This document shows, piece after piece, positions 5,830-52,431 of a stretch of DNA of 64,000 bases. The position numbers and the translations under genes are program-made. The DNA comes from Tenacibaculum sp. 190524A02b (lineage in GTDB: Bacteria > Bacteroidota > Bacteroidia > Flavobacteriales > Flavobacteriaceae), in NCBI RefSeq assembly GCF_964036645.1, contig NZ_OZ038525.1:4964001-5028000 (forward strand). The letters are read 5' to 3'. The notes below the pieces were generated by a model, which was not told where the DNA came from, made no database searches, and saw only the letters and a program-made list of their open reading frames with translations. Every line of letters starts with the position of its first letter. Within the stretch, counting starts at the first letter, position 1.

Positions 5830-7633
5830 TCTCAGGAACTTTAATAGTAACTAAGGTACCTAAATTTTTATTGGATTGTATGCTAAATTTACCTTTCATT
5901 TTAGTTACTCTTTCTTGAATAGATTGTAAGCCGAATGATTTATAATGTTTAGACGTATTGAAACCTAACCCATTATCATTAACTTCTAATAGAATAGTAT
6001 TGGAGGTGGTTTTAGACATCACAATTTTAATTTTATTTGCATTTGAATGTTTAATAGCATTGGTAACTAATTCAGAAATTATTCTATATAAATGAATACA
6101 TTTTTCTTTAGATAACTGAGTGTTTTCTAAAGAGATATTATAGGAAATAATATTATTCGTTATATTATTTATTTTATAAATAAATTCGGTTAAGGTCTCA
6201 ATAAAGTTATTAGCGTTAATTTTAGGAGCGTATAAATTATTTAAAAGGTATCTATAGTCATTATCAAAAGCATTTAAAATTTCTTCAATTTTTTTAGGAG
6301 TATCTTTATCTTTATTTAGTAATCTAAGTTTTAAAGCTTCTAAGTATCCACCAAAGCTATCATGAACATTTTTTAGTAATTTATTTCTTTCTTGTTCTTG
6401 TATTTCTATTGTTTTATTTTGAAGACTATATTTTAACTCATCACTTATCTTTTTTAATTGTGTGTATTTTTTTTGAGATTGTATAACTGCATTAAAAATA
6501 AAGCGAGTAAAACATAAAATTTCAATAACTAAAGCAATGTAAAAAATATTAGCAGTACCATAAATCCACCAATTACTATCCGTATTTAAAGGATTAATAC
6601 TTTGAGAAATGATAATACTTACAATAGGTGCAGCAAAAGCAAAAACAAGGTAATTAGGGATTCTCTTTTTTCGAGCTAAATAAATATGATTGACAAACCA
6701 AATAAATATAATAATCTTTAATAAAACCCATACATACAAGTATAAACTTACCATTCCTCCTCCAAGATATTTATATAAATAAAGTAGCATTAATGGGATA
6801 GTAAGTATAGTACCCCATTTAAAAATGTTTTTAGAAATAGTTTCATCCTTTGAAAAAGTATAAAACCTTAAATAGAAGAATCCCATGCAAAATACAGCAA
6901 AAGTTTGAGTAAAACTTCTAATGTTTTTGGTTATAAAAGGATAGTCAGACCATATGAATTGAATACCTAGACCTTTACCAGCTAAAAATTCAATAACCAT
7001 ACAAAAAATATAAACAGCGTAAAAGAGAACACTGTATTCCTTTTTTAAAATAGAAAAGAATAGGAGTATACAAATCATAGATATTAAAAAAGCGATGAAT
7101 AATCCAAATTGGATATATTCAGTTTGAGTTCGTTTGAGGAACTCATTTTTAGTTTCCAAATGCAGTTCTAGTCGTGTTCTACTACCTCCGTTTTTTAATT
7201 TAAGAATTACTTCGCTACTGTTTAATGAGTCAGAAGGGATTTCCCAAGTAGGGTGTCTGTAAAATAGATATTTGTAAGGAAACTTTTTATAATAGGAAGT
7301 TCTGTGTAATGGTATAATAGAATCGTTTTTACATAAATACAATTTTCCGTATGCTAAATAGGGGAAAGAAAAAGTTAAATATTGTTCTCCATTTGCTTTT
7401 TTTACAGGTATGTATAACCACCAATTCTTCTTCCCTAGTTTTCTATAAAGTTTTTTAAGTTTTGTTTTGGTGAAGTTAGAGTCTTTGAATTTATGATAGA
7501 CCTCTTCAATGCCCCATTTTTCTTTAGAAGAGATTACACAAATTTGATTATAAATAGTATTGGTTTTGTCTTCTTGAGCAAAAGAAAAGAGAAAACTAAA
7601 AAGTAAGGTGGTAGTTAATAGTTTGGTTTTCAT
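5816..7633 (-). CDS. 7TM-DISM-type sensor histidine kinase (NarL-partner class)
   Basis: The protein (605 residues) starts with a signal peptide (LLFSFLFSFAQ), then an extracellular domain at about 25-165 of the DISM type, seven hydrophobic helices at about 172-385, a coiled coil, and a HisKA_3 dimerisation domain with phosphorylated His424 in LLKNVHDSFGGYLEALKLR. The ATPase domain shows SELVTNAIKHSN (N box) and DNGLGFN (G1). The ligand is unknown; DISM domains are thought to bind carbohydrates or other small molecules. It overlaps its response regulator gene by 14 bases. Confidence 0.88.
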   Translation of the reverse strand: MKTKLLTTTLLFSFLFSFAQEDKTNTIYNQICVISSKEKWGIEEVYHKFKDSNFTKTKLKKLYRKLGKKNWWLYIPVKKANGEQYLTFSFPYLAYGKLYLCKNDSIIPLHRTSYYKKFPYKYLFYRHPTWEIPSDSLNSSEVILKLKNGGSRTRLELHLETKNEFLKRTQTEYIQFGLFIAFLISMICILLFFSILKKEYSVLFYAVYIFCMVIEFLAGKGLGIQFIWSDYPFITKNIRSFTQTFAVFCMGFFYLRFYTFSKDETISKNIFKWGTILTIPLMLLYLYKYLGGGMVSLYLYVWVLLKIIIFIWFVNHIYLARKKRIPNYLVFAFAAPIVSIIISQSINPLNTDSNWWIYGTANIFYIALVIEILCFTRFIFNAVIQSQKKYTQLKKISDELKYSLQNKTIEIQEQERNKLLKNVHDSFGGYLEALKLRLLNKDKDTPKKIEEILNAFDNDYRYLLNNLYAPKINANNFIETLTEFIYKINNITNNIISYNISLENTQLSKEKCIHLYRIISELVTNAIKHSNANKIKIVMSKTTSNTILLEVNDNGLGFNTSKHYKSFGLQSIQERVTKMKGKFSIQSNKNLGTLVTIKVPENEEN

Positions 7634-7720
7634 AAGCTTTTAAAAATACCATACTAAAGTATGATATTTTTATTGGAATCCTAAGGTAGTTTTGAAAAAG
7701 AGATAAAAAACCATAGGATT

Positions 7721-8014
7721 ATGAAAACAAACAAAATTTTAATTTGGAGTTTATACTTTATTTTTTCACTAAGTATAAGTAGTTGTGAAGAATTATTTGG
7801 AGAAGATGAAGAAATAGCAGAACAGTCTTCAGGGGCTAATTGTTCTTTGTCTAACTATAATGGACCAGATATGAGTACTCAGTTTGAAGTACAATGTAAA
7901 GCAGCATATACATATAAGTGTGCAGGAAATACCAATGCTTTAAAAAAGCAATGTGCTTATTATAAGCAACTACAACAAAGCTATAATTTACCAGATTGCC
8001 CTTATTGTAACTAA
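7721..8014 (+). CDS. small Cys-rich lipoprotein, 97 aa
   Basis: A lipoprotein signal (IWSLYFIFSLSISSC, lipidated Cys22) is followed by an acidic linker (EELFGEDEEIAEQ) and a compact region with six further cysteines, ending in CPYC. The cysteines are probably disulfide-bonded outside the cytoplasm. I do not recognise the family. The gene is six bases upstream of the amidohydrolase gene, so the two are probably co-transcribed. Confidence 0.65.
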   Translation: MKTNKILIWSLYFIFSLSISSCEELFGEDEEIAEQSSGANCSLSNYNGPDMSTQFEVQCKAAYTYKCAGNTNALKKQCAYYKQLQQSYNLPDCPYCN

Positions 8015-8020
8015 AATAGA

Positions 8021-9457
8021 ATGATGATGATACTACCAGAAAAAATAATAGATATGCATGTACATATTTTTAACTTAAAATACATACCTATTTTTGGAGC
8101 CATAAAAGCGTATGCTCCTTTTATAAAAGATGCACATGCAAAAACAGCTGAAATTGTTTTATTAATAGCCACAGGAAAGAGTAGATTTAAAGAGTTAGAA
8201 GCGTTTAAAAACATGTCTTTTGAAGATACTCGTAAAACAATAGATATTAAAATGCTAGAAGAAGAGAATGATGTTTTAGCAGAAAACATTGTTGATTTAC
8301 TTGATGATCATGAAATTGAAAGGTTGATGGATGAAGAATATTTTTATGAAGCTGTATATGATATAGAAAATGATCAATTAGATAAAGAGATTTTTACTGA
8401 GATAGGAGGAATGAAGTCAGCCAAGCAAGCAAAAGCACTGAAACTGTTTTCAATTAAAAGAAAACTGAGAAAATTGATAAAGAAGGTAATATCAGGTTTT
8501 CATTTTCTTAAGTGGTTTTTATTTATGACTCGTTCAGAAAAAAAAGTTTATGAAAAAATGAAAAAAAGCTACCCAAGTGTGAACACTTTTGTTTTTCATA
8601 TGCTAGATGGTTATCATTATTTTAAAGATAGTAGCAGTGCTTTTGGTAACCCTGCCTATTATAGAATTGAAGAACAAATAAAGAGGATGAAAAAGATGTT
8701 GGATTTGCATACAGATTTAATAGGTTTTTTGCCTTATAATCCCAAAAGGCCAGAGAGTTTAAGGTTGATTAAAAAGTATATGAATCATGAAAGGTTTATC
8801 GGAGTAAAGTTTTACCCTTCTTTTGGTTATAAACCTATCAATGATCCAGATGAAGAAGTAAATAGAAATAATAAAGAACTTTTTCGATTTTGTATTGAAT
8901 ATGACATACCTATTTTAACGCATTGTACCAATGAAGGATTTCAAGCTCAACCAGGTATATCGGGTGAAAATTGTAACCCTAAATATTGGGAAGAACTTCT
9001 AAGTATACAAGAGTTTAAGAACCTGAGAATTTGTATGGGACATGCTGGAGGAGTTGATGGTTGGTTTGATGATTTTGATCCAGACGAAGGAGAAGTATTT
9101 ACTGGTTCAGAAGATGAGGCAGGAAATATAGAATATCCTTATGCAAAAAAAATGTATGAACTGTGTGTTAAGTTCCCCAACGTATATTGCGAGGTAGGTT
9201 TTTTATCTCATGTTAAAAATGATGGAAAAATGGAAAACTATGTAAAAAGACTTCAGTATTTATTTGAAAATGATAATGAAACCTATAAGTTTTCTGATAA
9301 AGTAATGTACGGGAGTGATTGGCATATACTATACAATCATGGTATTCAATATGACTATGATAAGGAGTATATAGGCATTTTTAATAAGCCTGTTCTAAAA
9401 GAGTATATTGAGAATTTTTTTTATAAAAATGCAGCAAAATTTTTAACCATGTTTTAG
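8021..9457 (+). CDS. amidohydrolase-family metal-dependent hydrolase
   Basis: A 478-residue protein with the TIM-barrel amidohydrolase (Amidohydro_2-like) signature: the N-terminal HxH metal motif in DMHVHIF (His13, His15), IPILTHCTN (barrel-strand histidine), CMGHAGG (histidine) and YGSDWH (catalytic aspartate) near the end. The barrel is interrupted by a long charged helical insert at about 80-190 (several KK-rich stretches) that is unusual for the family. The substrate is unknown. No signal peptide. It sits between a small lipoprotein and a HExxH protein, all on one strand with short spacers. Confidence 0.8.
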   Translation: MMMILPEKIIDMHVHIFNLKYIPIFGAIKAYAPFIKDAHAKTAEIVLLIATGKSRFKELEAFKNMSFEDTRKTIDIKMLEEENDVLAENIVDLLDDHEIERLMDEEYFYEAVYDIENDQLDKEIFTEIGGMKSAKQAKALKLFSIKRKLRKLIKKVISGFHFLKWFLFMTRSEKKVYEKMKKSYPSVNTFVFHMLDGYHYFKDSSSAFGNPAYYRIEEQIKRMKKMLDLHTDLIGFLPYNPKRPESLRLIKKYMNHERFIGVKFYPSFGYKPINDPDEEVNRNNKELFRFCIEYDIPILTHCTNEGFQAQPGISGENCNPKYWEELLSIQEFKNLRICMGHAGGVDGWFDDFDPDEGEVFTGSEDEAGNIEYPYAKKMYELCVKFPNVYCEVGFLSHVKNDGKMENYVKRLQYLFENDNETYKFSDKVMYGSDWHILYNHGIQYDYDKEYIGIFNKPVLKEYIENFFYKNAAKFLTMF

Positions 9458-24947: not shown

Positions 24948-24993
24948 TGTATTGTAGCCTAACGTATTATGTTGGGCTTTTTTGGAGGCCATT

Positions 24994-25224
24994 TGTACAA
25001 GAAAATTTTTCAGAAAAAAAAGTTTGTACAGGTCTGTACAAGAAAAAAAATGCAAAAAAAAAGTTTGTACAGCAAATGCTTGTACACCGTTGTACAAGAA
25101 AATTTTTCAGAAAAAAAAGTTTGTACAAGTCTGTACAAGAAAAAAAATGACAAAAAAAAGTTTGTACAGCAAATGTTTGTACACCGTTGTACAAGAAAAT
25201 TTTTTAGAGAAAAAAGTTTGTACA
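24994..25224. repeat. 97-bp tandem repeat array with 12 TGTACA palindromes
   Basis: A 97-bp unit is present about 2.4 times. TGTACA starts at 24994, 25025, 25035, 25066, 25081, 25091, 25122, 25132, 25163, 25178, 25188 and 25219, giving the spacing series 31-10-31-15-10 that repeats exactly. Between the palindromes lie A-rich tracts (GAAAATTTTTCAGAAAA and similar). All six frames are largely open only because the unit lacks stops; I do not consider them genes. The 10 and 31 spacings are near one and three helical turns, as for operator arrays. Confidence 0.9.
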
Positions 25225-25265
25225 AGATTTTTCTAGGAAGATTACTAAAATAAAATTGCAAAAAA

Positions 25266-25796
25266 ATGCTAAACAGTATTAAACTACATTATAATATAAC
25301 CACTACTATTTTGGCTAAATATTTACGCAGCTCTTATAGTTTTGTTAACTCGTTAGTTGTTGGGCGTAGGCAAATGAGTTTGCCACATTACCAAGCTTTG
25401 ATTCCTTTGCACAATGCCTTAGCATTAAAACTACCAGTAACCGAGCTTTCTGGGGCTATTAATTTTATAGAAGTAGAGGAGAAGAAGTGTATTGAACACT
25501 TAGAAAAATACGCTAAAAAAATAACCGAAAGTATAGAGAAGCGTAAAGAAACCTTGCAGGCCTTAGAGCTTACCCGATTAAACTGGTTACGAGGTATCCA
25601 TGCTTGTAATGAGTTGTTAAAAACAAACTTAACACAAGAGCAACAACATTGGATAGGTTTGCGTAAATCGCACTTAGAAATTCGATTAAAAGAGCGATCG
25701 TTAGTTAAGGTATTGCAAATTCAGAGTGAAGTAAATGGGCTAGAAGCACAGTATACCTTTTTATTGGAGGAAATTAAACGTTTAAAAGCCAAGTAA
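25266..25796 (+). CDS. coiled-coil protein with HTH-like N-terminus, 176 aa
   Basis: Residues 5-50 (ITTTILAKYLRSSYSFVNSL and VVGRRQMSLPHYQALIPLH) have the helix pattern of a Cro/cI-type DNA-binding domain, followed by about 120 residues of coiled coil (KCIEHLEKYAKKITESIEKR, and a final LEEIKRLKAK). A dimeric DNA-binding protein is a fair guess. It begins 41 bases after the TGTACA repeat array, which would be a natural operator. Unknown family. Confidence 0.6.
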   Translation: MLNSIKLHYNITTTILAKYLRSSYSFVNSLVVGRRQMSLPHYQALIPLHNALALKLPVTELSGAINFIEVEEKKCIEHLEKYAKKITESIEKRKETLQALELTRLNWLRGIHACNELLKTNLTQEQQHWIGLRKSHLEIRLKERSLVKVLQIQSEVNGLEAQYTFLLEEIKRLKAK

Positions 25797-26184
25797 TATA
25801 GTTTAGTAATGTTTTTATAGTAAAAAATAAGAGGTGCTCAGTTATGTTAGATTGAGTACTTGCAGGAACCTAAAATTGAAAACTTTATACGCTATGGGAA
25901 TATTGGAAAAAAGTTTAGATTTAAATTGTTCCGAATTTGTAACAGTTCCTTTTTTTATTATTAATTTTAACAGAAATGAAATCAAAATAAAAACAGCAGA
26001 CAAAAGGTTCTGAATTTCATTACACAAATTATTTTTCTTAATGATCACTACACGAATAATTTATGTAACCACACAACGCTAAATTTAGACCTTATACGTT
26101 TTGTGCAAGCAAAAAAAATACTCGTCCAATTTTCGGTTGCTGACTAAATTTTATCATAGTTACTTTGCATCAAAACATAAAAAG
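25797..26184. other. 388-bp intergenic region
   Basis: Contains a promoter for the PEP mutase-like gene at its right end. Short frames on both strands (such as a 39-codon frame starting near 25891 on the plus strand) lack any support. No repeats seen. Confidence 0.5.
26137..26167 (+). promoter_or_regulatory. putative promoter of the PEP mutase-like/ada operon
   Basis: TTG at 26137-26139 and TTACTTTG at 26160-26167, 20 bases apart, close to the Bacteroidetes TTG and TAnnTTTG consensus. The predicted start is about 10 bases before the ATG at 26185, leaving a short leader. Confidence 0.45.
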
Positions 26185-26940
26185 ATGGAGTTTAGAAATT
26201 TACACAGCCAAGATAAACCTTTATTAATTGGAAATGTTTGGGATGTACCAAGTGCAAAAACAGCCGAAAAGTTAAACTTTCAAGCAATTGGAACTTCGAG
26301 TTCCGCAATTGCATCAATTTTAGGGTATAAAGATGGTGAAGAAATGGAATTTTCTGAATTGGAATATTTCGTAAAGAAGATTGCTATAAACACAAACTTA
26401 CCTTTGTCAGTTGATTTAGAATCGGGATATAGTCGCAAACCAAAAGAAATTGTTAATCATATTAAAAGATTAGCAAAATTAGGAGTTGTTGGAATTAATA
26501 TCGAAGATAGTGTTGTTAACGAAAAACGGATTTTATTAAACGCTAAAGACTTCGCAAAGACACTTAAAGAAATAAAGAGGGAATTAAAAAAGGAAAATAT
26601 TGATGTTTTTATAAATGTGAGAACAGATACATTTATTTTACTTCAAGATAATGTAATTGAAGAAACAAAAAAAAGAATTCAACTTTATCAAAATGCTGGA
26701 GCAAATGGAATTTTCGTTCCTTGTATTGAGAAAGAAAATGACATTAAAGCAATAGTCGAATCAACAGATTTACCAATTAATGTAATGTGTATGCCTAACC
26801 TTCCAAATTTTGAGACATTAGCAAAATTAGGTGTAAAACGAATAAGTATGGGGAATTTCCTTTTTGACAAGATGTATGATAAATTTGAAGAAAGTTTACA
26901 AACTGTTATAAATCAAAGTTCATTTAAGTCAATATTTTAA
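26185..26940 (+). CDS. isocitrate lyase/PEP mutase superfamily enzyme
   Basis: The ATG at 26185 (MEFRNLHSQDKPLLIGNVWD) fits the family start; an in-frame TTG at 26101 overlaps the promoter. The TIM-barrel core is seen in GNVWDVPSAKTAEKL, IGTSSSAIASILGYKDGE, VDLESGYS (metal binding), INIEDSV and FVPCIEKENDI. Such proteins cleave or rearrange small 2-hydroxy or phosphonate acids; the lyase cysteine motif is absent, so the exact reaction is unknown. It shares an operon with ada (1 base apart). Confidence 0.85.
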   Translation: MEFRNLHSQDKPLLIGNVWDVPSAKTAEKLNFQAIGTSSSAIASILGYKDGEEMEFSELEYFVKKIAINTNLPLSVDLESGYSRKPKEIVNHIKRLAKLGVVGINIEDSVVNEKRILLNAKDFAKTLKEIKRELKKENIDVFINVRTDTFILLQDNVIEETKKRIQLYQNAGANGIFVPCIEKENDIKAIVESTDLPINVMCMPNLPNFETLAKLGVKRISMGNFLFDKMYDKFEESLQTVINQSSFKSIF

Positions 26941-26941
26941 A

Positions 26942-28000
26942 ATGCTGATTACAGACAATAACAAAATCGAAACTTATTATCAAGCTCTGTTAGATAGAAA
27001 ACAGAGCTTTGTAGGTATTTTCTTTGTAGGTGTAAAAACCACTTCCGTTTTTTGTATTGCAACTTGCCGAGCAAGAAAACCAAAATTGAAAAATGTAGAG
27101 TTTTATACTTCATTTAAGGAGGCTTTGGATAATGGATATAGACCTTGTAAAATTTGTAAACCAACGGAAAATGCAAATCAAGCACCTGAACAAGTCGAGA
27201 AAGCTATTATATTGGTAAAAGAAAATCCTAAAGACAAAATAACCGACTTTCAATTAAGAAAAAAAGGAATTAGTCCAGAGGTTGTGCGTAGATGGTTTAA
27301 AAATAATTATGGTATGACTTTTCAAGCATATCAAAGAATGTATAGAATAAACAATGCCTTTCAAGAACTGAAAAAAGGAAAGAATGCTACAGATACTGCT
27401 TTTGACACAAGTTACGAATCGTTAAGTGGTTTTGGGTACACTTTTAAAAAACTTGTAGGTAAATCACCAAAACAAATTAAAGATAAAAACATAATACTTA
27501 TTAACAGACTTACAACACCTTTAGGTCCAATGTTTGTTTGTGCAACAGATAATGGAATCTGTTTATTGGAATTTGTTGACAGAAGAATGCTCGAAACAGA
27601 ATTTAAAGATTTACAAAAATTATTGAAGGCTAATATTATTTTGGGCGAGAACGAACACATCAAACAAGTTAAGAAAGAGATTAAAGAATATTTTGAGGGG
27701 GTAAGAAAAAAATTTGACGTAAAACTTGAAACACCTGGAACTGATTTTCAAAATTCAGTTTGGAATTGTTTACAACAAATAGAATACGGAACAACAATAA
27801 CTTATCAAAAACAAGCAGAAAAAATCAACAAACCAAAAGCAATTAGAGCAGTTGCGTCCGCAAATGGTAACAATAGAACTTCTATTATTATACCTTGTCA
27901 TAGAGTAATTGGGAAAGATGGAAAAATGACTGGATATGGTGGAGGAATTGAGCGAAAGAAATGGCTAATTGAACACGAACGGAAGAATGCCTGTAAATAA
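26942..28000 (+). CDS. ada: Ada: methylated-DNA repair protein and AraC-type regulator
   Basis: Full-length three-part Ada (352 residues). The N-terminal zinc domain has Cys38, Cys42, Cys69 and Cys72 at exactly the E. coli positions (FCIATCRARKP, YRPCKICKP). An AraC HTH follows at about 85-165 (SPEVVRRWFKNNYGMTFQAY). The C-terminal methyltransferase has the acceptor Cys319 in IIPCHRVIG. It repairs O6-methylguanine and, when methylated at Cys38, activates the adaptive response. The upstream gene ends one base before the ATG, so both are co-expressed; the gene is likely autoregulated. Confidence 0.92.
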   Translation: MLITDNNKIETYYQALLDRKQSFVGIFFVGVKTTSVFCIATCRARKPKLKNVEFYTSFKEALDNGYRPCKICKPTENANQAPEQVEKAIILVKENPKDKITDFQLRKKGISPEVVRRWFKNNYGMTFQAYQRMYRINNAFQELKKGKNATDTAFDTSYESLSGFGYTFKKLVGKSPKQIKDKNIILINRLTTPLGPMFVCATDNGICLLEFVDRRMLETEFKDLQKLLKANIILGENEHIKQVKKEIKEYFEGVRKKFDVKLETPGTDFQNSVWNCLQQIEYGTTITYQKQAEKINKPKAIRAVASANGNNRTSIIIPCHRVIGKDGKMTGYGGGIERKKWLIEHERKNACK

Positions 28001-28009
28001 AACATAATA

Positions 28010-28390
28010 TTACCAAAAGATTTTGTAAGAATAACTACTGAAAAAATATGCTATCAAAATAAAGTCTGTTGTATATCCAAAATGATCACTAAAAGAGCTA
28101 GTATGCTGTAAATGTAAAAGTGGTCTTATAAAGAATACTAAAATAATACTCCCTATTAGAGCTGACCCTATATTAATAATTTAGAAAAGCTATAGAAAAT
28201 AAAAATAGTACATAATCAATTGATAAAACTACCAGAAAACCTTCTTTTTTCTGATAAATAAACTTGTGCTCAAAAACAAAATAAACTAGTAGAACCAAAC
28301 AACAAACAGTATAAAAACTCCTTATTTTTTATAATGGCTATATAAATCAGAATAACACAGAAAAATTGATCTTCTATTAGTAAAATAATT
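28010..28390 (-). pseudogene. decayed membrane-protein gene (two frameshifts)
   Basis: Reading leftward, three consecutive segments in different frames make one plausible hydrophobic protein: VILIYIAIIKNKEFLYCLLF (about 28375-28290), then EHKFIYQKKEGFLVVLSIDY continuing to IAFLN (about 28270-28190), then ALIGSIILVFFIRPLLHLQH onward to a stop at 28010-28012 (final residues SYKIFW). The three parts together form about 120 residues with at least three membrane helices. No intact start is visible. The gene is probably a relic that lies between ada and the defence cassette. Boundaries are approximate. Confidence 0.45.
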
Positions 28391-28497
28391 TAAATTTGGT
28401 AAACAGAAAAAAAGGGGGTAATCCTCATAATAAACCATAGGTAAAATGATACCGCATAGTTCAACTACGGGTTAAATCAAAATGCGCCTGCGGCTTA

Positions 28498-28520
28498 TAT
28501 GATTTAATCCTATAATGTTG
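28498..28520. repeat. 23-bp direct repeat, left edge of the defence cassette
   Basis: Matches 31711-31733 at 22 of 23 positions (TATGATTTAATC, then C or T, then TATAATGTTG). It ends in the sequence that leads into the TTGTATGCA half of an inverted repeat. The two copies bracket the ATPase and HNH genes, 3213 bp apart. Confidence 0.7.
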
Positions 28521-28526
28521 TATGCA
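28518..28526. repeat. TTGTATGCA, left arm of a flanking inverted repeat
   Basis: Its perfect reverse complement TGCATACAA is at 31344-31352, five bases after the HNH gene stop. With the following bases the match extends to 11 of 12. The arms frame the two-gene unit tightly. Confidence 0.6.
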
Positions 28527-28551
28527 ATTAAAAAACAGAAGAATTCAATAA

Positions 28552-30504
28552 GTGAAATTGACAAAAAAAATAAGGTTAAATATCCTGAGAATGCTTCTAT
28601 CAGAACAGGATTTATTTGGTGAATCTCAAGATGATATTAATATAATTGAGTTTTTGGATGAGATGCTTGACTTAAAATCTCTTCCCTCTGAAGATAGTAG
28701 GTATAACAATGCTTATGATGACGCCTTTCAGCATTTAGTTAATAATTACGATTGGGAGTACGAATATGTTCTTACAGAGAGATTCAATATTGTCGATGAA
28801 CTTGATGTTTTTCTTTCCTTTTTGAATAAGATTATTCATCCAAATATTAGAAATAATGATGATGACATTACGAGGTATTATTTATTAATCAACCCATATT
28901 TAGAAAAGGAAAATTTAACCTATTCCCTTGAATCATATACTGAAGAAGGCTTACCAGTTTATGTTGTTAAGGAAATAGACATAAAGAATGTAGTACCTTC
29001 TACAATAATTGAAAATAAAATTCCATTTTTCATTGATAATAATCCTGATGGATTTTATGATTATAAAGACACCCACAGAACTCCAGATTTATTCCCTTGT
29101 TTTGTTTTATCAAATAATAGTGGATGGAATGATTATGGTAATAGGTCAACGTACTATTTATATTTTTACCCAAACAGAGATGAATGCTTAAAAATAGGTT
29201 CTGTAAAAATTATTCATCAAGAAATAGATAACACTCCTGATATTTTAAATGAGAGCTTTACTGTATTAAATGAAAACTTTAGTTCTCTCGGTACAGAGTA
29301 TAGCTACTATGAAAATTTAAAATCAATATTTGATAAGACTTATGACAGTATTTTTTGGGCATTAAAGGATATTGCAATATTTCCCGACATTTTAGAGGAA
29401 TTTGAAAATCACTATTATTTTAGAAATTCTTTAATAAGGTATGATGAGCAAGAGCAGTTATTACGTGAAGTAAAGTATCGTCTTTATGATTACAACCTTA
29501 AAAACCTCTATAGTTTCCAGTATTCGTTCAAACCTAAATTTGCCGATGAACCAATAGATGTACATTTTGATTTTGATGCAAATAGAGCTATCCCAAGTAG
29601 AATTTTCGCATTAATTGGTAAAAATGGAACAGGAAAAACTCAATTAATTACTTCACTGCCAATTGATATTTCGAAGAAGAACAATGATGTTTTTACTCCA
29701 AAAACACCATTATTTAGTAAGGTAGTAGCGGTTTCATATAGCGCATTCGACTCATTTGATATTCCTAAAAAAACTGCGGATTTTAATTATGTCTATTGTG
29801 GTCTAAAGGATTCCAAAGGGGAACTTTACAGTGAAAAAGGTCTAAAATTAAGATTTCATAGCTCTTGGAAAAAAATAGCTACTAATAGAAGATTTGATAA
29901 ATGGCTTAATTTACTTCCTTTCTTTTTAGACCAAGAACTTATTAATGAATTTATAGTTGAAACAGAAGTTTCTTGGGAGTACACAGTTGATATAAAAGGC
30001 TTTAATAGCGTTAGTAAAAAACTTAGTTCCGGTCAAAGTATTCTCTTGTATATAATTACAGAGATTGTTGCAAATATTCGTTATGCTTCATTAGTTATTT
30101 ATGATGAGCCAGAAACACATCTGCATCCCAATGCTATATCTCAATTAATAAATGCTATATATAACCTTACTAATGAATTTCAATCTTATTGTATCTTAGC
30201 GACTCACTCACCACTTATAGTTAGGGAACTCCTTTCAAGCAATGTTTATATTATGGATAGAGAAGAATCCGTTTTAAGTGTTAGAAAGCCGATTTCAGAA
30301 ACATTTGGTGAAAACCTGACAGTAATTACTGAAGATATTTTTGGCAACAATAGTATTCCTAATCAATACAAAAAGATATTAACTCGTTTAGTTAAATCAG
30401 GTAAATCGTATGATGAAATAGTATCGTTAATCTCATCTGAAAATATTCCATTGAGCCTTAATACGAGAATCTATTTAAAAAGTATAATTGATGAGAAATC
30501 TTAA
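28552..30504 (+). CDS. Septu PtuA-like ABC-type ATPase with AbiJ-NTD3-like N-terminus
   Basis: The protein (650 residues, GTG start; the next Met is inside the domain) has two parts. Residues 1-140 resemble the AbiJ N-terminal domain 3 found in many defence and conflict genes: IEFLDEMLDLKSLPSEDSRY, QHLVNNYDWEYEYVL, ERF, and NKIIHPNIRNN in the expected order. Residues 330-580 form an SMC/ABC-like ATPase of the AAA_15 kind: Walker A GKNGTGKT (356-363), signature LSSGQ (491-495), Walker B LVIYDEPE (514-521) and switch His552. The following gene, an HNH nuclease, overlaps it by 17 bases, the pairing seen in Septu (PtuA-PtuB). Anti-phage function is inferred. Confidence 0.82.
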   Translation: MKLTKKIRLNILRMLLSEQDLFGESQDDINIIEFLDEMLDLKSLPSEDSRYNNAYDDAFQHLVNNYDWEYEYVLTERFNIVDELDVFLSFLNKIIHPNIRNNDDDITRYYLLINPYLEKENLTYSLESYTEEGLPVYVVKEIDIKNVVPSTIIENKIPFFIDNNPDGFYDYKDTHRTPDLFPCFVLSNNSGWNDYGNRSTYYLYFYPNRDECLKIGSVKIIHQEIDNTPDILNESFTVLNENFSSLGTEYSYYENLKSIFDKTYDSIFWALKDIAIFPDILEEFENHYYFRNSLIRYDEQEQLLREVKYRLYDYNLKNLYSFQYSFKPKFADEPIDVHFDFDANRAIPSRIFALIGKNGTGKTQLITSLPIDISKKNNDVFTPKTPLFSKVVAVSYSAFDSFDIPKKTADFNYVYCGLKDSKGELYSEKGLKLRFHSSWKKIATNRRFDKWLNLLPFFLDQELINEFIVETEVSWEYTVDIKGFNSVSKKLSSGQSILLYIITEIVANIRYASLVIYDEPETHLHPNAISQLINAIYNLTNEFQSYCILATHSPLIVRELLSSNVYIMDREESVLSVRKPISETFGENLTVITEDIFGNNSIPNQYKKILTRLVKSGKSYDEIVSLISSENIPLSLNTRIYLKSIIDEKS

Positions 30505-31339
30505 TGTATACAATGATAGCACATCAGATTTCTTAGATGAGGTTATAGCATCAAAAAGAAATTCTTCGAAAGACCCTGATTATAAACAAAGAGTAAATCT
30601 ACTTTCTCCTAATATAAAAGTGCTTTATAATAATTACGATACGGCTCATAATACAAATAATCACGTAAGTTTAATTCCAAATGGGTATGTAAATCAAGAA
30701 AAAGAGGATCTATTAAAACTATATACTTCAGGCAATTCACGTTTAGTAAAATTAAAAAATAGCATTACGACTGTTTTAGATAATAGAGCTATGAACACTT
30801 GTCAATATTGTACTATTGCACCAGTTGGCTCCTTAGACCATATTGTTCCTAAAGGTGAGTTTCCCGAATTTTCAGTTAACCCAAAGAATTTATTACCTGC
30901 GTGTACCACTTGTAACAGCCATAAAAATGAAAATTGGAAAGAGAATAATAAAACTATTTTCCTAAATCTTTATACGGACATTTTACCAAATGACCAGTAT
31001 TTATTTGTCGATTTGGTTATCACTGCAAATAACATACAACCAACTTTTGAATTACGGAATATTAATAATATAAATCCTGATTTTTTTGATTTATTAGAGA
31101 ATCACTATTCACGTTTACACTTACCTCAAAGATTTAAAAAAGAGAGCCATAAAATTATATCAGAGTTGACAAACTTAATATCTGCAAGTAGTCGTCTTCT
31201 TGATGAAAACCAAATCAAACAACTCGTCTTAACCAAAATTAATGATGATAAATCTGTATTTGGTAGTAATTACTATAAATCAATTTTAGAAGAAACTTTA
31301 ATAAATAATCAAACCTATTTAAATAGTGTATTAATATAA
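30488..31339 (+). CDS. HNH endonuclease, PtuB-like
   Basis: The protein (283 residues) has a zinc-ribbon HNH core: Cys105 and Cys108 in NTCQYC, the catalytic DHIVPKGE (Asp117, His118), asparagine-containing NPKNLLPACTTCN with Cys139 and Cys142, and His145. The rest is helical without known motif. The start is 17 bases inside the ATPase gene, suggesting a tight stoichiometric complex, as for PtuA and PtuB in Septu. It is predicted to cleave nucleic acid during phage infection. The gene is directly followed by the right arm of the flanking inverted repeat. Confidence 0.82.
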   Translation: MMRNLNVYNDSTSDFLDEVIASKRNSSKDPDYKQRVNLLSPNIKVLYNNYDTAHNTNNHVSLIPNGYVNQEKEDLLKLYTSGNSRLVKLKNSITTVLDNRAMNTCQYCTIAPVGSLDHIVPKGEFPEFSVNPKNLLPACTTCNSHKNENWKENNKTIFLNLYTDILPNDQYLFVDLVITANNIQPTFELRNINNINPDFFDLLENHYSRLHLPQRFKKESHKIISELTNLISASSRLLDENQIKQLVLTKINDDKSVFGSNYYKSILEETLINNQTYLNSVLI

Positions 31340-31765
31340 AAACTGCATACAATAACTAAGCGTATGGCGTGCTGATAGGTTAACGCTATATATATGTCTT
31401 GTTGACTGATCCAGAATATGGTAAGGGGTAAAACGACTTTTTTAGCTATTTTATTTTCAGTTATTTAGTGGCAATTTTTTAGATTTATTTATGAGTTTTT
31501 ATATTTTGATTTTAAATCATTTAAAAACAAACACTACAAATTCAAGTCACTTTTGTGCCTGTTTTAAAAGTCCATATTTATTCTTTTTATTTTTCCCCAG
31601 CTCTCCCACGAATCTTTTCATGTGGTGATTATGAGTAAGAAACAATATAAAGAGAAATAGGTATTTTAGATGATATTATTATTTTTAGAAAATTAATATG
31701 CATAAGGTTTTATGATTTAATCTTATAATGTTGATATTCATATAGAAGTAACATCCGAAATTTAA
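31340..31765. other. 426-bp spacer with cassette boundary repeats
   Basis: Contains TGCATACAA (31344-31352) just after the HNH gene and the right copy of the 23-bp direct repeat at its far end. A 24-codon frame on the minus strand (31621 to 31547, MKRFVGELGKNKKNKYG) has no support. The rest is AT-rich. Confidence 0.55.
31711..31733. repeat. 23-bp direct repeat, right edge of the defence cassette
   Basis: Right copy of the repeat at 28498, with one mismatch. It lies 33 bases before the AraC gene's start, so it may also form part of that gene's promoter region. Confidence 0.7.
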
Positions 31766-32512
31766 TTGAATAATACTAAAACATATTGTCCAAATTATCC
31801 GCTTAACCAATTTATAAATGCAATATGGGTAAGTCAATCAGATAATTATGAAATTCAAACAATTCATTACGCACCTTTGTTCACGGAATTGATTTTCAAT
31901 TATGGTGACTCATTTTCTGTAAATGGGCAAAATGTTGAGGAATTTAATTTTCAGAATAACCATCAAATATTATCGGGGCTAAAAACAAAACCATTTCATA
32001 CACAAGTTTCGGGCAAGCATCTTAACGTTGGACTCATCTTAAAACCGTTTTGTTATGGATTAATAGCAAAGCAAATTAACAGTTCAATAATTGGAAATTT
32101 ATCTGAAATCCTGTTTGAACAGTTTTTTATAAAAACAAAACCAGATTTAAAAAAAATTGAAGTAGAGTTGTTTAAATTATTTCAAAACTCACACTTAGAA
32201 AATGATTTGATAAAATTTGAGACCTATCTAAATAAAAAAATAGTTGAACCAAAGAGAATAAAGGATTTTAATAAGTTAATTTCGATTTCTCAAAAGAGTT
32301 TTATTCAAAAATTCAAGAATACTTTTCATATAGCACCAAACGAATACGTGAGATTAAAACAAGTCAATCACGCAATAATTAAACTTAAAACCAATAAATA
32401 TAAAAACCTCACAAGTTTAGGTCTTGACTGTGGTTTTTATGACCAATCACATTTTATAAGAACATTTAAAAAATATAGTGGATTAACACCAAAACAATTT
32501 ATGAAAGGGTAA
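31766..32512 (+). CDS. AraC-family transcriptional regulator
   Basis: The start is TTG at 31766 (NNTKTYCPNYPLNQFINAIW fits the usual family opening and no ATG is available). An N-terminal ligand domain of about 150 residues (DUF6597-like) precedes the AraC HTH at about 160-248 (ISIAPNEYVRLKQVNHAIIK-like helix, then FYDQSHFIRTFKKYSGLTPKQF). It is followed 66 bases later by the dihydrofolate reductase-like gene, which is probably its target. Confidence 0.82.
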   Translation: MNNTKTYCPNYPLNQFINAIWVSQSDNYEIQTIHYAPLFTELIFNYGDSFSVNGQNVEEFNFQNNHQILSGLKTKPFHTQVSGKHLNVGLILKPFCYGLIAKQINSSIIGNLSEILFEQFFIKTKPDLKKIEVELFKLFQNSHLENDLIKFETYLNKKIVEPKRIKDFNKLISISQKSFIQKFKNTFHIAPNEYVRLKQVNHAIIKLKTNKYKNLTSLGLDCGFYDQSHFIRTFKKYSGLTPKQFMKG

Positions 32513-32544
32513 ATTCTGTACAATTTCAAAGCATAGGAATCATT

Positions 32545-32552
32545 TAATTTTG
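32545..32552 (+). promoter_or_regulatory. putative -7 box of the DHFR-like gene
   Basis: TAATTTTG matches TAnnTTTG and sits 27 bases before the ATG at 32579. No strong -33 element is seen. Confidence 0.35.
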
Positions 32553-32578
32553 CATTTAACTTTAAACAAAGTACAGAT

Positions 32579-33118
32579 ATGGATAAAAAAAATAAAGTGT
32601 TTATAGCAACAAGTTTGGATGGTTATATTGCTGACAAAAAAGGCAGAATTGATTGGTTACAATCTATTCCAAATCCAAACAACAATGATATGGGATATGT
32701 AAAATTCTCTAAAGGAATTGACGCACTTGTTATGGGACGAACGACTTTTGAAACCGTAATTAGTTTTGATGTTCCTTGGCCTTACACGAAACCTGTTTTT
32801 GTATTGAGTAATAAACTTAAAGAAATACCTGAATCTCATAAAGAAAAGGCTTTTTTAGTTAACGGAACTCTAACAGAAATTTTAGAGCAAATTCACGGAA
32901 GAGGATATGAGAGGTTATATATTGATGGAGGAACAACAATTAGAAATTTCTTAAAGGAAGACTTGATTGATGAAATGGTTCTTACGACTATTCCGATTTT
33001 ATTAGGTGGTGGTTCTTCATTGTTTACTGAATTACCAAACGAGCAGAAGTATGAGTTGATTGAAACAAAAACCTATTTAAACCAAATAGTGCAAAATTGT
33101 TATAAGCGGAAAAGATAA
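32579..33118 (+). CDS. dihydrofolate reductase-family protein (RibD C-terminal type)
   Basis: The 179-residue protein has the DHFR-like RibD_C pattern: KVFIATSLDGYIADKKGRID at the start, ALVMGRTTFET, PVFVLSN, LYIDGGTTIRNFL and TTIPILLGGGSSLF near the end. It probably binds NADPH; whether it reduces folate or another substrate is unknown, as these proteins often lack classical DHFR activity. It follows an AraC regulator and precedes a terminator. Confidence 0.85.
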   Translation: MDKKNKVFIATSLDGYIADKKGRIDWLQSIPNPNNNDMGYVKFSKGIDALVMGRTTFETVISFDVPWPYTKPVFVLSNKLKEIPESHKEKAFLVNGTLTEILEQIHGRGYERLYIDGGTTIRNFLKEDLIDEMVLTTIPILLGGGSSLFTELPNEQKYELIETKTYLNQIVQNCYKRKR

Positions 33119-51151: not shown

Positions 51152-51976
51152 TTAAATTGCTACCTTTAGTTTTTTGTAGCTTTTTCTTTTGACTTTTTTT
51201 TGTTGGTGCATTTGATTAGGAGTTAACATTGAATTTGATAAATGAGGTCTTATTTGATTGTAAATATTGATTGCATTTTTAATTAACTTCTTTTTAATTT
51301 GTATAGAAACGTCGTATTTATCAATTGCAAATTCTTGTTTAAGAATCCCATTGATTCTTTCAGCTATAGCATTTTCATAAGGATCATATTTTTCAGTCAT
51401 GCTAGGTTTGATATTATTGATACTTAACATTTTTTGATATTCATTAGAGCAATATTGTAACCCTCTATCTGAATGATGAATAATAGGTTCTTTATTATAA
51501 TTTCTATTAGAGATTGCCATATCTAGGGCTCTTAAAGAACCTGCTACATTTAAACTATTAGAGACATCATACCCCATTATTTTTTTAGAGTAAGCATCAG
51601 TAATTAGCGCTAAATAACATGGGTTTTCTCTCTTTCCAATGTAAGTAATATCACTCACCCATACTTGTTCAGGTCTTACAAATTCTATATTTTTAAGTTG
51701 ATTTACATGTTTTCTAAATCTATGATGAGAATTTGTAGTTATATGATATTTTTTTCTTGGTAGAATTAATAAATTATTAGCTTTTAATATTTTAAACAAC
51801 TTATCACGACCAACACCAATTGCTTTTAATTCAGATTTTAAAAGATAAAATAATTTCCTTGTACCTATTCTCGGCATTGATATACGGATAGTATTTACTA
51901 AATCAATAACCTTTTTACTAAGCTTTTGTTTCTCTTTATATGAATGAATAGCTCTATAATATACCTGCCTATTCAC
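51152..51976 (-). CDS. IS3-family transposase, OrfB (DDE integrase core)
   Basis: The 274-residue protein has the rve catalytic domain: Asp109 in VWVSDITYI, Asp170 in HHSDRGLQY, and Glu206 in AIAERINGIL, a DD(35)E triad. The GTG start shown is probably not used on its own: the frame is open upstream to the end of OrfA (KESITATCDLLGVNRQVYYR), so the active product is likely an OrfAB fusion made by -1 frameshifting near the AAAG run in the OrfA tail (about 52005-52015). Confidence 0.92.
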   Translation of the reverse strand: MNRQVYYRAIHSYKEKQKLSKKVIDLVNTIRISMPRIGTRKLFYLLKSELKAIGVGRDKLFKILKANNLLILPRKKYHITTNSHHRFRKHVNQLKNIEFVRPEQVWVSDITYIGKRENPCYLALITDAYSKKIMGYDVSNSLNVAGSLRALDMAISNRNYNKEPIIHHSDRGLQYCSNEYQKMLSINNIKPSMTEKYDPYENAIAERINGILKQEFAIDKYDVSIQIKKKLIKNAINIYNQIRPHLSNSMLTPNQMHQQKKVKRKSYKKLKVAI

Positions 51977-51999
51977 CCCGAGTAAATCACAGGTAGCTG

Positions 52000-52431
52000 T
52001 TATGCTTTCTTTGGCTTCTTGACTATATTTTTTGATAACTCGGGTACGTGCTTTTTTCTGATTGGAATATTAAATTCTTCTTCAGCAATATCAATCATCA
52101 TATCAAAAATGATGACTTTTTTATCAGCAAGCTCTGCTAAATATTCAGCACGTGCTTTTTGCTTTTCTAAAAGCTTGACTTGTTGCTCTAATTCTAAAAT
52201 ACGCTGTTCAGGTGTTTTTGACATGGTTTGATTTATACTAAAATCGTAATCAAATTTACCATATTTTTTTAACCAAGTACGAATCGTAGATCTTGCTTGA
52301 ATACCATATTTATCAATCGCTTGAGTTCTGGTTAATAATCCTTGCTCAATCTCTTGAACAACTTGTAGTTTAAAGGACAAACTATAATCCTTTTGGGTTC
52401 GCTTTACATAATCTGATTTCCTAGAATCCAT
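52000..52431 (-). CDS. IS3-family transposase, OrfA (HTH and leucine zipper)
   Basis: The 143-residue protein has an N-terminal helix-turn-helix (LSFKLQVVQEIEQGLLTRTQ, GIQARSTIRTWLKKYG) and a leucine-zipper region (RILELEQQVKLLEKQKARAE). Its tail is lysine-rich (KKPKKA). It binds the terminal repeats and supplies the first part of the OrfAB fusion. The gene is the first in the leftward element. Confidence 0.92.
   Translation of the reverse strand: MDSRKSDYVKRTQKDYSLSFKLQVVQEIEQGLLTRTQAIDKYGIQARSTIRTWLKKYGKFDYDFSINQTMSKTPEQRILELEQQVKLLEKQKARAEYLAELADKKVIIFDMMIDIAEEEFNIPIRKKHVPELSKNIVKKPKKA

Follow-up and report, generated by a model that had tools for sequence, protein, structure and literature searches.

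What do the repeats around a Septu-like defence pair in Tenacibaculum sp. 190524A02b tell us about how the pair came to lie there? In the window, by which we mean the whole 64,000-nucleotide stretch analysed here (contig NZ_OZ038525.1, positions 4,964,001 to 5,028,000), an ATPase gene and an HNH nuclease gene stand between two copies of a 23-bp direct repeat, and the first-pass annotation had taken them for a mobile unit with cassette-like bracketing repeats. Repeat copies, cognate ends and an edge shared with Maribacter arenosus support that view. We consider it probable that this pair, which corresponds to the candidate system PDC-M01, belongs as a single gene cassette to an integron-like system found in Bacteroidota. 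As far as can be read from sequence, the order in the arrays of relatives is a recombinase gene, a palindromic attI-like site and a run of co-oriented cassettes. Each putative cassette extends from the TT of one G|TT as far as the G|TT that follows, and the attC-like site of the cassette begins with the reverse complement of the cassette's first ~10 nucleotides (nt).

Edges of the proposed cassette

The proposed cassette covers positions 28518..31730 of the + strand, from the TT of the left G|TT to the G of the next, an extent set by its cognate ends and by the M. arenosus edge. The left copy of the direct repeat (28498..28520, +; repeat search and palindrome scan) is an imperfect palindrome directly before GTTG, and the right copy (31711..31733, +; repeat search) reaches the proposed start of the next cassette, TTGATATTC, at 31731. 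The two copies agree at 22 of 23 positions and are the sole matches in the window at up to three mismatches, where 0.02 are expected. Up to the left edge extends the 5' element (28320..28517, +), a copy of a ~200-bp repeat where one would expect the attC-like site of the preceding cassette. The left 23-bp copy forms the tail of this element; the right 23-bp copy is a short match without it. The inverted repeat that had been reported just outside the coding ends along with the direct one is likewise present, its 9-bp halves being TTGTATGCA (28518-28526) and TGCATACAA (31344-31352). At greater length, the left cassette end TTGTATGCAATT (28518..28529, +; R'-like), placed by end pairing and the M. 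arenosus edge, is the reverse complement, save one base, of the right end AACTGCATACAA (31341..31352, +; R''-like), placed by end pairing and the M. arenosus comparison. The 3' element of the cassette (31345..31730, +) occupies the attC position. A search of Rfam at the repeats returned no relevant RNA family. A 9-mer inverted repeat is within chance in this AT-rich window, and 10- and 11-mer pairs occur nearby; we find it credible because it lies exactly at the repeat edges, because other cassettes of the genome have the same arrangement and because its edge is shared with Maribacter.

The most stringent test comes from M. arenosus, whose ATPase orthologue is 91% identical: the DNA identity sets in exactly at GTTGTATGCAATT, behind different sequence, and fades on the right at the inverted repeat, AACTGCAT. 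Over 114 bp, the DNA just upstream has 88.6% identity with a site in L197, a recombinase-headed array of another flavobacterium, and one gene further upstream stands a palindrome (11-nt arms, 2-nt centre) followed by GTT. With this edge and the palindrome upstream, the pair would seem to be the second cassette there, counted from an attI-like site.

The ~200-bp element has five copies in the 5.04-Mb genome, the other four lying at 660, 860, 862 and 4858 kb with 88-92% identity. This dispersal, and the dissimilarity of the element to the attC model described below, would also suit a stand-alone Septu-like unit that happens to be flanked by a dispersed repeat unrelated to it, such as a miniature inverted-repeat transposable element (MITE). 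The distribution of the pair points the same way and weighs against a cassette: among 10 distinct loci, a cassette edge is found in 2 (our genome and Maribacter), and the other 8 lie outside cassettes. We nevertheless regard the MITE explanation as unlikely. In the alignment, all five copies stop at ATAATG|TT with a different gene after each, so that every full copy precedes a different gene start at the same base; cassettes have complementary ends, the sequence of which varies from one cassette to another; and in Maribacter the edge falls at the same place, preceded by a different site with a likeness to those of arrays. The first-pass annotation had read the repeats as the unit's own bracket. 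They are real, but copies of them also precede other genes in the genome. It had also held unrelated sequence between such repeats to speak against a mobile unit; literally, such sequence is present, yet this is the pattern of gene cassettes and mobility is not refuted by it. Repeat copies that precede other genes have the look of gene cassettes, which supports mobility.

Pairing of ends recurs elsewhere in the genome. Two neighbouring cassettes have complementary ends (TTGCCCACAATT with AACTGTGGGCAA, and TTGTAGGTAATT with AACTACCTACAA), and for five of six TAACTAAG-type sites the neighbouring gene unit has a cognate 7-mer at its start, compared with 3 of 30 off-diagonal combinations; two of those five sites also have a second, chance match. 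GTT pairs in the loci of our own genome number 28 against a median of 9, a count that stays under those of several AT-rich words, and the window ends are not included in it because the right end has no AAC. At 180 kb, a site recognised by the attC model (L072 6187-6325, − strand; 74.5 bits) is followed by a gene for 292 amino acids (aa) and then by a 79% copy of the first ~250 bp of the window's 3' element, and in the 660-kb array a recognised site (64.1 bits) lies alongside the ~200-bp repeat. A gene of the latter array (L069 5821-6333) matches PADLOC CARF_2OG with an E of 6.9e-15, and runs of a ~42-bp tandem repeat, noticed by eye, lie beside own-genome arrays (L071 about 7500-8300; L070 950-1249).

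A tyrosine recombinase gene at 126.5 kb, now broken, stands at the head of an array of co-oriented genes, the first cassette of which has kept its cognate ends, 529 bp apart. The edges, the mixed arrays at 180 and 660 kb and the Maribacter neighbour tie the window sites to this type of platform. We read the sites that flank the pair as belonging to a system that has lost its recombinase in this genome, and as having diverged or decayed. Because the recombinase gene is broken and the flanking sites have diverged, the window cassette is probably stranded.

Recombinase-headed arrays in related genomes

At E ≤1e-40, the open part of the broken gene has homologues in 123 of 199 genomes of the family. 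For the study of arrays we took 20 recombinase loci, and then 20 more distantly related ones as a second set. Most of the first 20 have a recombinase of ~376 aa and, behind it, extended rows of small co-oriented genes with ~140-bp repeats between them; L188 and L190 stop at contig ends, and L203 has a divergent recombinase without the ~140-bp repeats. Directly after the recombinase gene, a palindrome with arms of 10-14 nt and a GTT within 9 nt was found in 16 of 19 platforms, a count that omits the divergent L203; the background of palindromes with arms of at least 9 nt is 0.056 per kb (36 kb from six of the platform loci). A GTT at most 250 nt from the recombinase stop, with a cognate 9-mer downstream, is present at 16 of 17 loci, and the palindrome recurs at the broken recombinase copy of our genome, in two further arrays of that genome and in Maribacter. 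The relatives' platforms appear to have an attI-like site next to the integrase. The recombinase gene lies ~0.1-2 kb from a contig end in L188, L190, L228, L231, L234 and other family matches; repeated sites may break assemblies, and draft genomes may hide arrays.

The attC-like sites are ~137 bp long. We aligned 30 of them from six loci and built a covariance model. Its stem pairs AAC with GTT in one box and a GTGTATA-type sequence with its counterpart in the other, and compensatory changes preserve it. In this alignment, 95.9% of stem cells are paired, compared with 20-42% in slid controls, and changes on both sides of a pair number 94 against 30 in shuffles. The model gives 165 matches at E 0.01 in 26 of 29 loci outside the training set, always on the recombinase strand, although L204 is not fully independent of it because it comes from the same genome as L185; L203, a locus from the same genus and with the divergent recombinase, still has two matches. 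Three L185 sites folded in circle form give z values of -6.0 to -9.4. The simpler pattern TAACAATACCTATAGC was tried as a marker and yielded mostly chance coding matches in 30 loci, and the covariance model was used instead. Across Bacteroidota, with at most 8 candidates scored per genome, attC-like sites at E 1e-4 occur in 112 of 395 genomes and 68 of 170 genera. The recombinase is found in 94 of the 395 at E 1e-60, and 66 genomes have both (odds ratio 13).

The ends of cassettes were compared in four of the 20 arrays (L185, L189, L197 and L204), picked for their readable sites, with site ends located by loosened motifs that omit variable bases; a stricter first pattern had caught 6 cassettes. 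Agreement with the cognate partner at six or more of seven bases is seen for 47 of 50 cassettes, compared with 31 of 656 non-cognate pairs. L185 alone has 20 recognised cassettes in 18 kb. Chains of at least three cassettes, and of up to 13, are present at 15 of the 20 loci; the reversed-sequence control gives at most 2. One- or two-cassette stretches are repeated two to three times within the array, at 97-99% identity, in L196, L199 and L189. The excess of GTT pairs in the arrays (218 at k=10 against a trinucleotide median of 26) is equalled or surpassed by TTT, AAA and AAT.

Cassettes are also shared between genomes. One is common to L226 and L244, of the same genus (98% over 1059 bp), and another to L194 and L198, of different genera (91% over 430 bp); both have GTT at either edge, with a tolerance of up to 3 shared bases, and their neighbours differ. 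The 126-kb array of our genome and L204 have a 438-bp stretch in common that is 80% identical. These three were used as evidence from 16 shared stretches listed, in which the rows among L228, L229 and L232 and the row L239/L243 are apparently ordinary chromosomal or recombinase-gene similarity. Of 20 proteins encoded in or beside arrays, 18 have no PADLOC match, and the arrays are a place to seek unknown genes.

In our picture, the recombinase would act at G|TT on attC sites folded from single strands and join them either to attI or to a second attC, by which cassettes could enter, leave and shuffle. Several observations weigh against placing the window pair in such a system. At the window's own flanks no attC site is recognised, despite the cognate ends: model R1 gives no match at E 1 on either flanking element, blastn of the elements against 97 other locus records at E 1e-4 gives none, and the elements fold weakly (z -1.4 and -1.2; a similar site of the same genome at 862 kb reaches -2.4 and -2.2). 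The Maribacter locus gives no attC model match at E 1, and M. arenosus no recombinase match at 1e-60. Among the TAACTAAG-type sites, the one at 663741 has no cognate, and a cognate of 8 nt is found at four of the six, the one at 180 kb being a chance match within a gene; the true cassette start there is ATT instead of GTT. For the system at large, the second set of 20 loci has chains of at least three cassettes in 4, one covariation measure of the five, the number of pair types, is not above shuffles, 28 of the 94 genomes with the recombinase have no attC match, and 46 of the 112 with attC-like sites have no recombinase match.

The recombinase and its relation to IntI

The array recombinase resembles XerA (5hxy, 4a8e), from which it differs in that it heads cassette arrays and has ~100 more residues at its N terminus. 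In its structure model (pLDDT 78.7, pTM 0.55), these N-terminal residues are scarcely covered by the fold comparison, and they have no match in the copy of Pfam searched. The closeness to XerA would be expected if the region were a chromosomal island formed by an ordinary Xer/dif-type system, with the repeats as degenerate dif-like sites. We find this very improbable, as dif sites would give no cassette-to-cassette changes of ends that are matched within each cassette, and a ~137-bp site with a covarying stem is unexpected of them.

The likeness to IntI integrons extends further. A recombinase with an adjacent attI-like site, co-oriented cassettes with cognate ends, a covarying attC stem with two box pairs, the GTT/AAC core and cassettes with exact edges common to several genomes are all features of that system, and the NCBI model names for the recombinase read 'site-specific tyrosine recombinase/integron integrase'. 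A classical IntI integron, or a derived cluster of attC sites that has no integrase (CALIN), would account for these features. The recombinase itself speaks otherwise. The integron integrase model TIGR02249 scores 184-207 bits in all five members tested, in two stretches and under the cut-off of 265, and in the comparison with IntI4 (2a3v), 64 IntI residues stand opposite 21 in the recombinase, which has no IntI-specific additional domain. It has the extra N-terminal part of ~100 aa, its gene is read in the direction of the array, and the first site of the Bacteroidota arrays differs from that of integrons in being a palindrome. None of 299 family genomes passes TIGR02249, a weak negative given the strict limit and the lack of signal from any positive control. 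Taken together, these differences make an IntI origin improbable in our view.

We lean instead toward the idea that Bacteroidota have a widespread integron class of their own, with a XerA-like recombinase that lacks the IntI insertion, a palindromic attI and its own attC family, and that the cargo it moves includes entire operons, some of them anti-phage candidates. If so, capture of cassettes on folded single strands works without the IntI-specific domain. In the portions of the integron surveys available to us, the extra domain of IntI is used to select or define integrases (PMC2426708, PMC9668308), and one of them calls it defining (PMC9668308). Because the array recombinase has no such insertion, surveys of this kind would probably miss it. 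The accessible text of one study describes few integrons in Bacteroidetes, an earlier study having found In0 only, followed by a complete integron in Salinibacter (PMC9024848), and excerpts of two others name the phylum or group among integron carriers (PMC2426708, PMC8618304). A literature search, with bioRxiv and most subscription journals outside its scope, found no description of such arrays in Flavobacteriaceae or Bacteroidota, and as far as these searches show, the cassette system is undescribed in this form. It appears to be widespread in Bacteroidota, a phylum that is abundant in many communities. Should the arrays be active, a large system of gene exchange has been overlooked in that phylum, and the need for the extra domain of IntI in cassette recombination becomes directly testable.

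The defence pair and its neighbourhood

The pair carried by the proposed cassette consists of an ATPase gene (28552..30504, +; PtuA-like, PDC-M01A) of 650 aa with a GTG start codon, and an HNH nuclease gene (30488..31339, +; PtuB-like, PDC-M01B) of 283 aa with a TTG start and an ATG 3 nt downstream. The 17 bp common to the two open reading frames and the Pfam HNH domain of the second protein (24.7 bits; cut-off 21.4) bear out the PtuA-PtuB-like arrangement that the first-pass annotation had described, as a Pfam search bears out its AbiJ-NTD3-like domain fused to the ATPase: AbiJ_NTD3 (PF18860) covers residues 3-146 (28558..28989, +) at E 5.1e-28 and 98 bits, well above the gathering score of 32.5, and is followed by AAA_21 and AAA_15. 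In an alignment of 24 members, the ATPase motifs GKNGTGKT, LSSGQ, DEPETHLHP and ATHSP show little or no variation.

The fusion does not amount to a new type. A new defence type is ruled out, since PDC-M01 of PADLOC-DB 2023 covers the pair including the N-terminal domain. Residues 2-644 of the ATPase align with positions 3-637 of the 639 in the PDC-M01A profile (E 7.6e-154), and the adjacent HNH protein matches positions 1-275 of 281 in PDC-M01B (E 3.7e-65). Both proteins are thus like this candidate of PADLOC-DB 2.0.0 over their full length, the AbiJ_NTD3 part included, and we see no difference between the window pair and PDC-M01 apart from the cassette setting. Of 1114 ATPase homologues found, 119 of the 120 among the matches listed are labelled with AbiJ_NTD3, the one without the label (P0065) being a shorter protein. 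Septu resembles the pair in its gene order, its ABC/AAA_15-type ATPase and its HNH neighbour; the window ATPase differs in the additional AbiJ_NTD3 N terminus. With the PADLOC Septu models, listed without cut-offs, PtuA1 scores 236.6 bits on residues 190-628 of the ATPase and PtuB matches residues 68-155 of the HNH protein weakly, at 43 bits. In the part of a Bacillus cereus survey that we draw on, PDC-M01 is an unpublished candidate that overlaps Septu calls (PMC11811056). The pair is, on domain and profile matches, a candidate Septu-like anti-phage operon of the PDC-M01 type and not novel. Since the candidate was known before, little is gained for the pair itself; what merits follow-up is the cassette system. 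The ATPase occurs at E ≤1e-100 in 4 of 397 Flavobacteriaceae genomes, our own counted, a patchy spread as expected for a defence gene. The ATPase with its AbiJ_NTD3 domain might sense infection and restrain the HNH nuclease, which, once the ATPase is triggered, would be freed to cut DNA.

On the same strand of the window, 26101-28000 and 31766-33118 hold genes for PEP mutase-like, Ada/MGMT, AraC-type regulator and RibD_C/DHFR-like proteins, and some of these neighbours may be further old cassettes. The unit that starts at 31731 is so far without a paired end. Further upstream, tandem ~97-bp repeats rich in TTGTACA palindromes (24993-25255) precede an open reading frame of 176 aa at 25266. In the open reading frame listing, frames of 143 and 274 aa at 51152-52431 on the − strand appear to form an IS3-type transposase pair.

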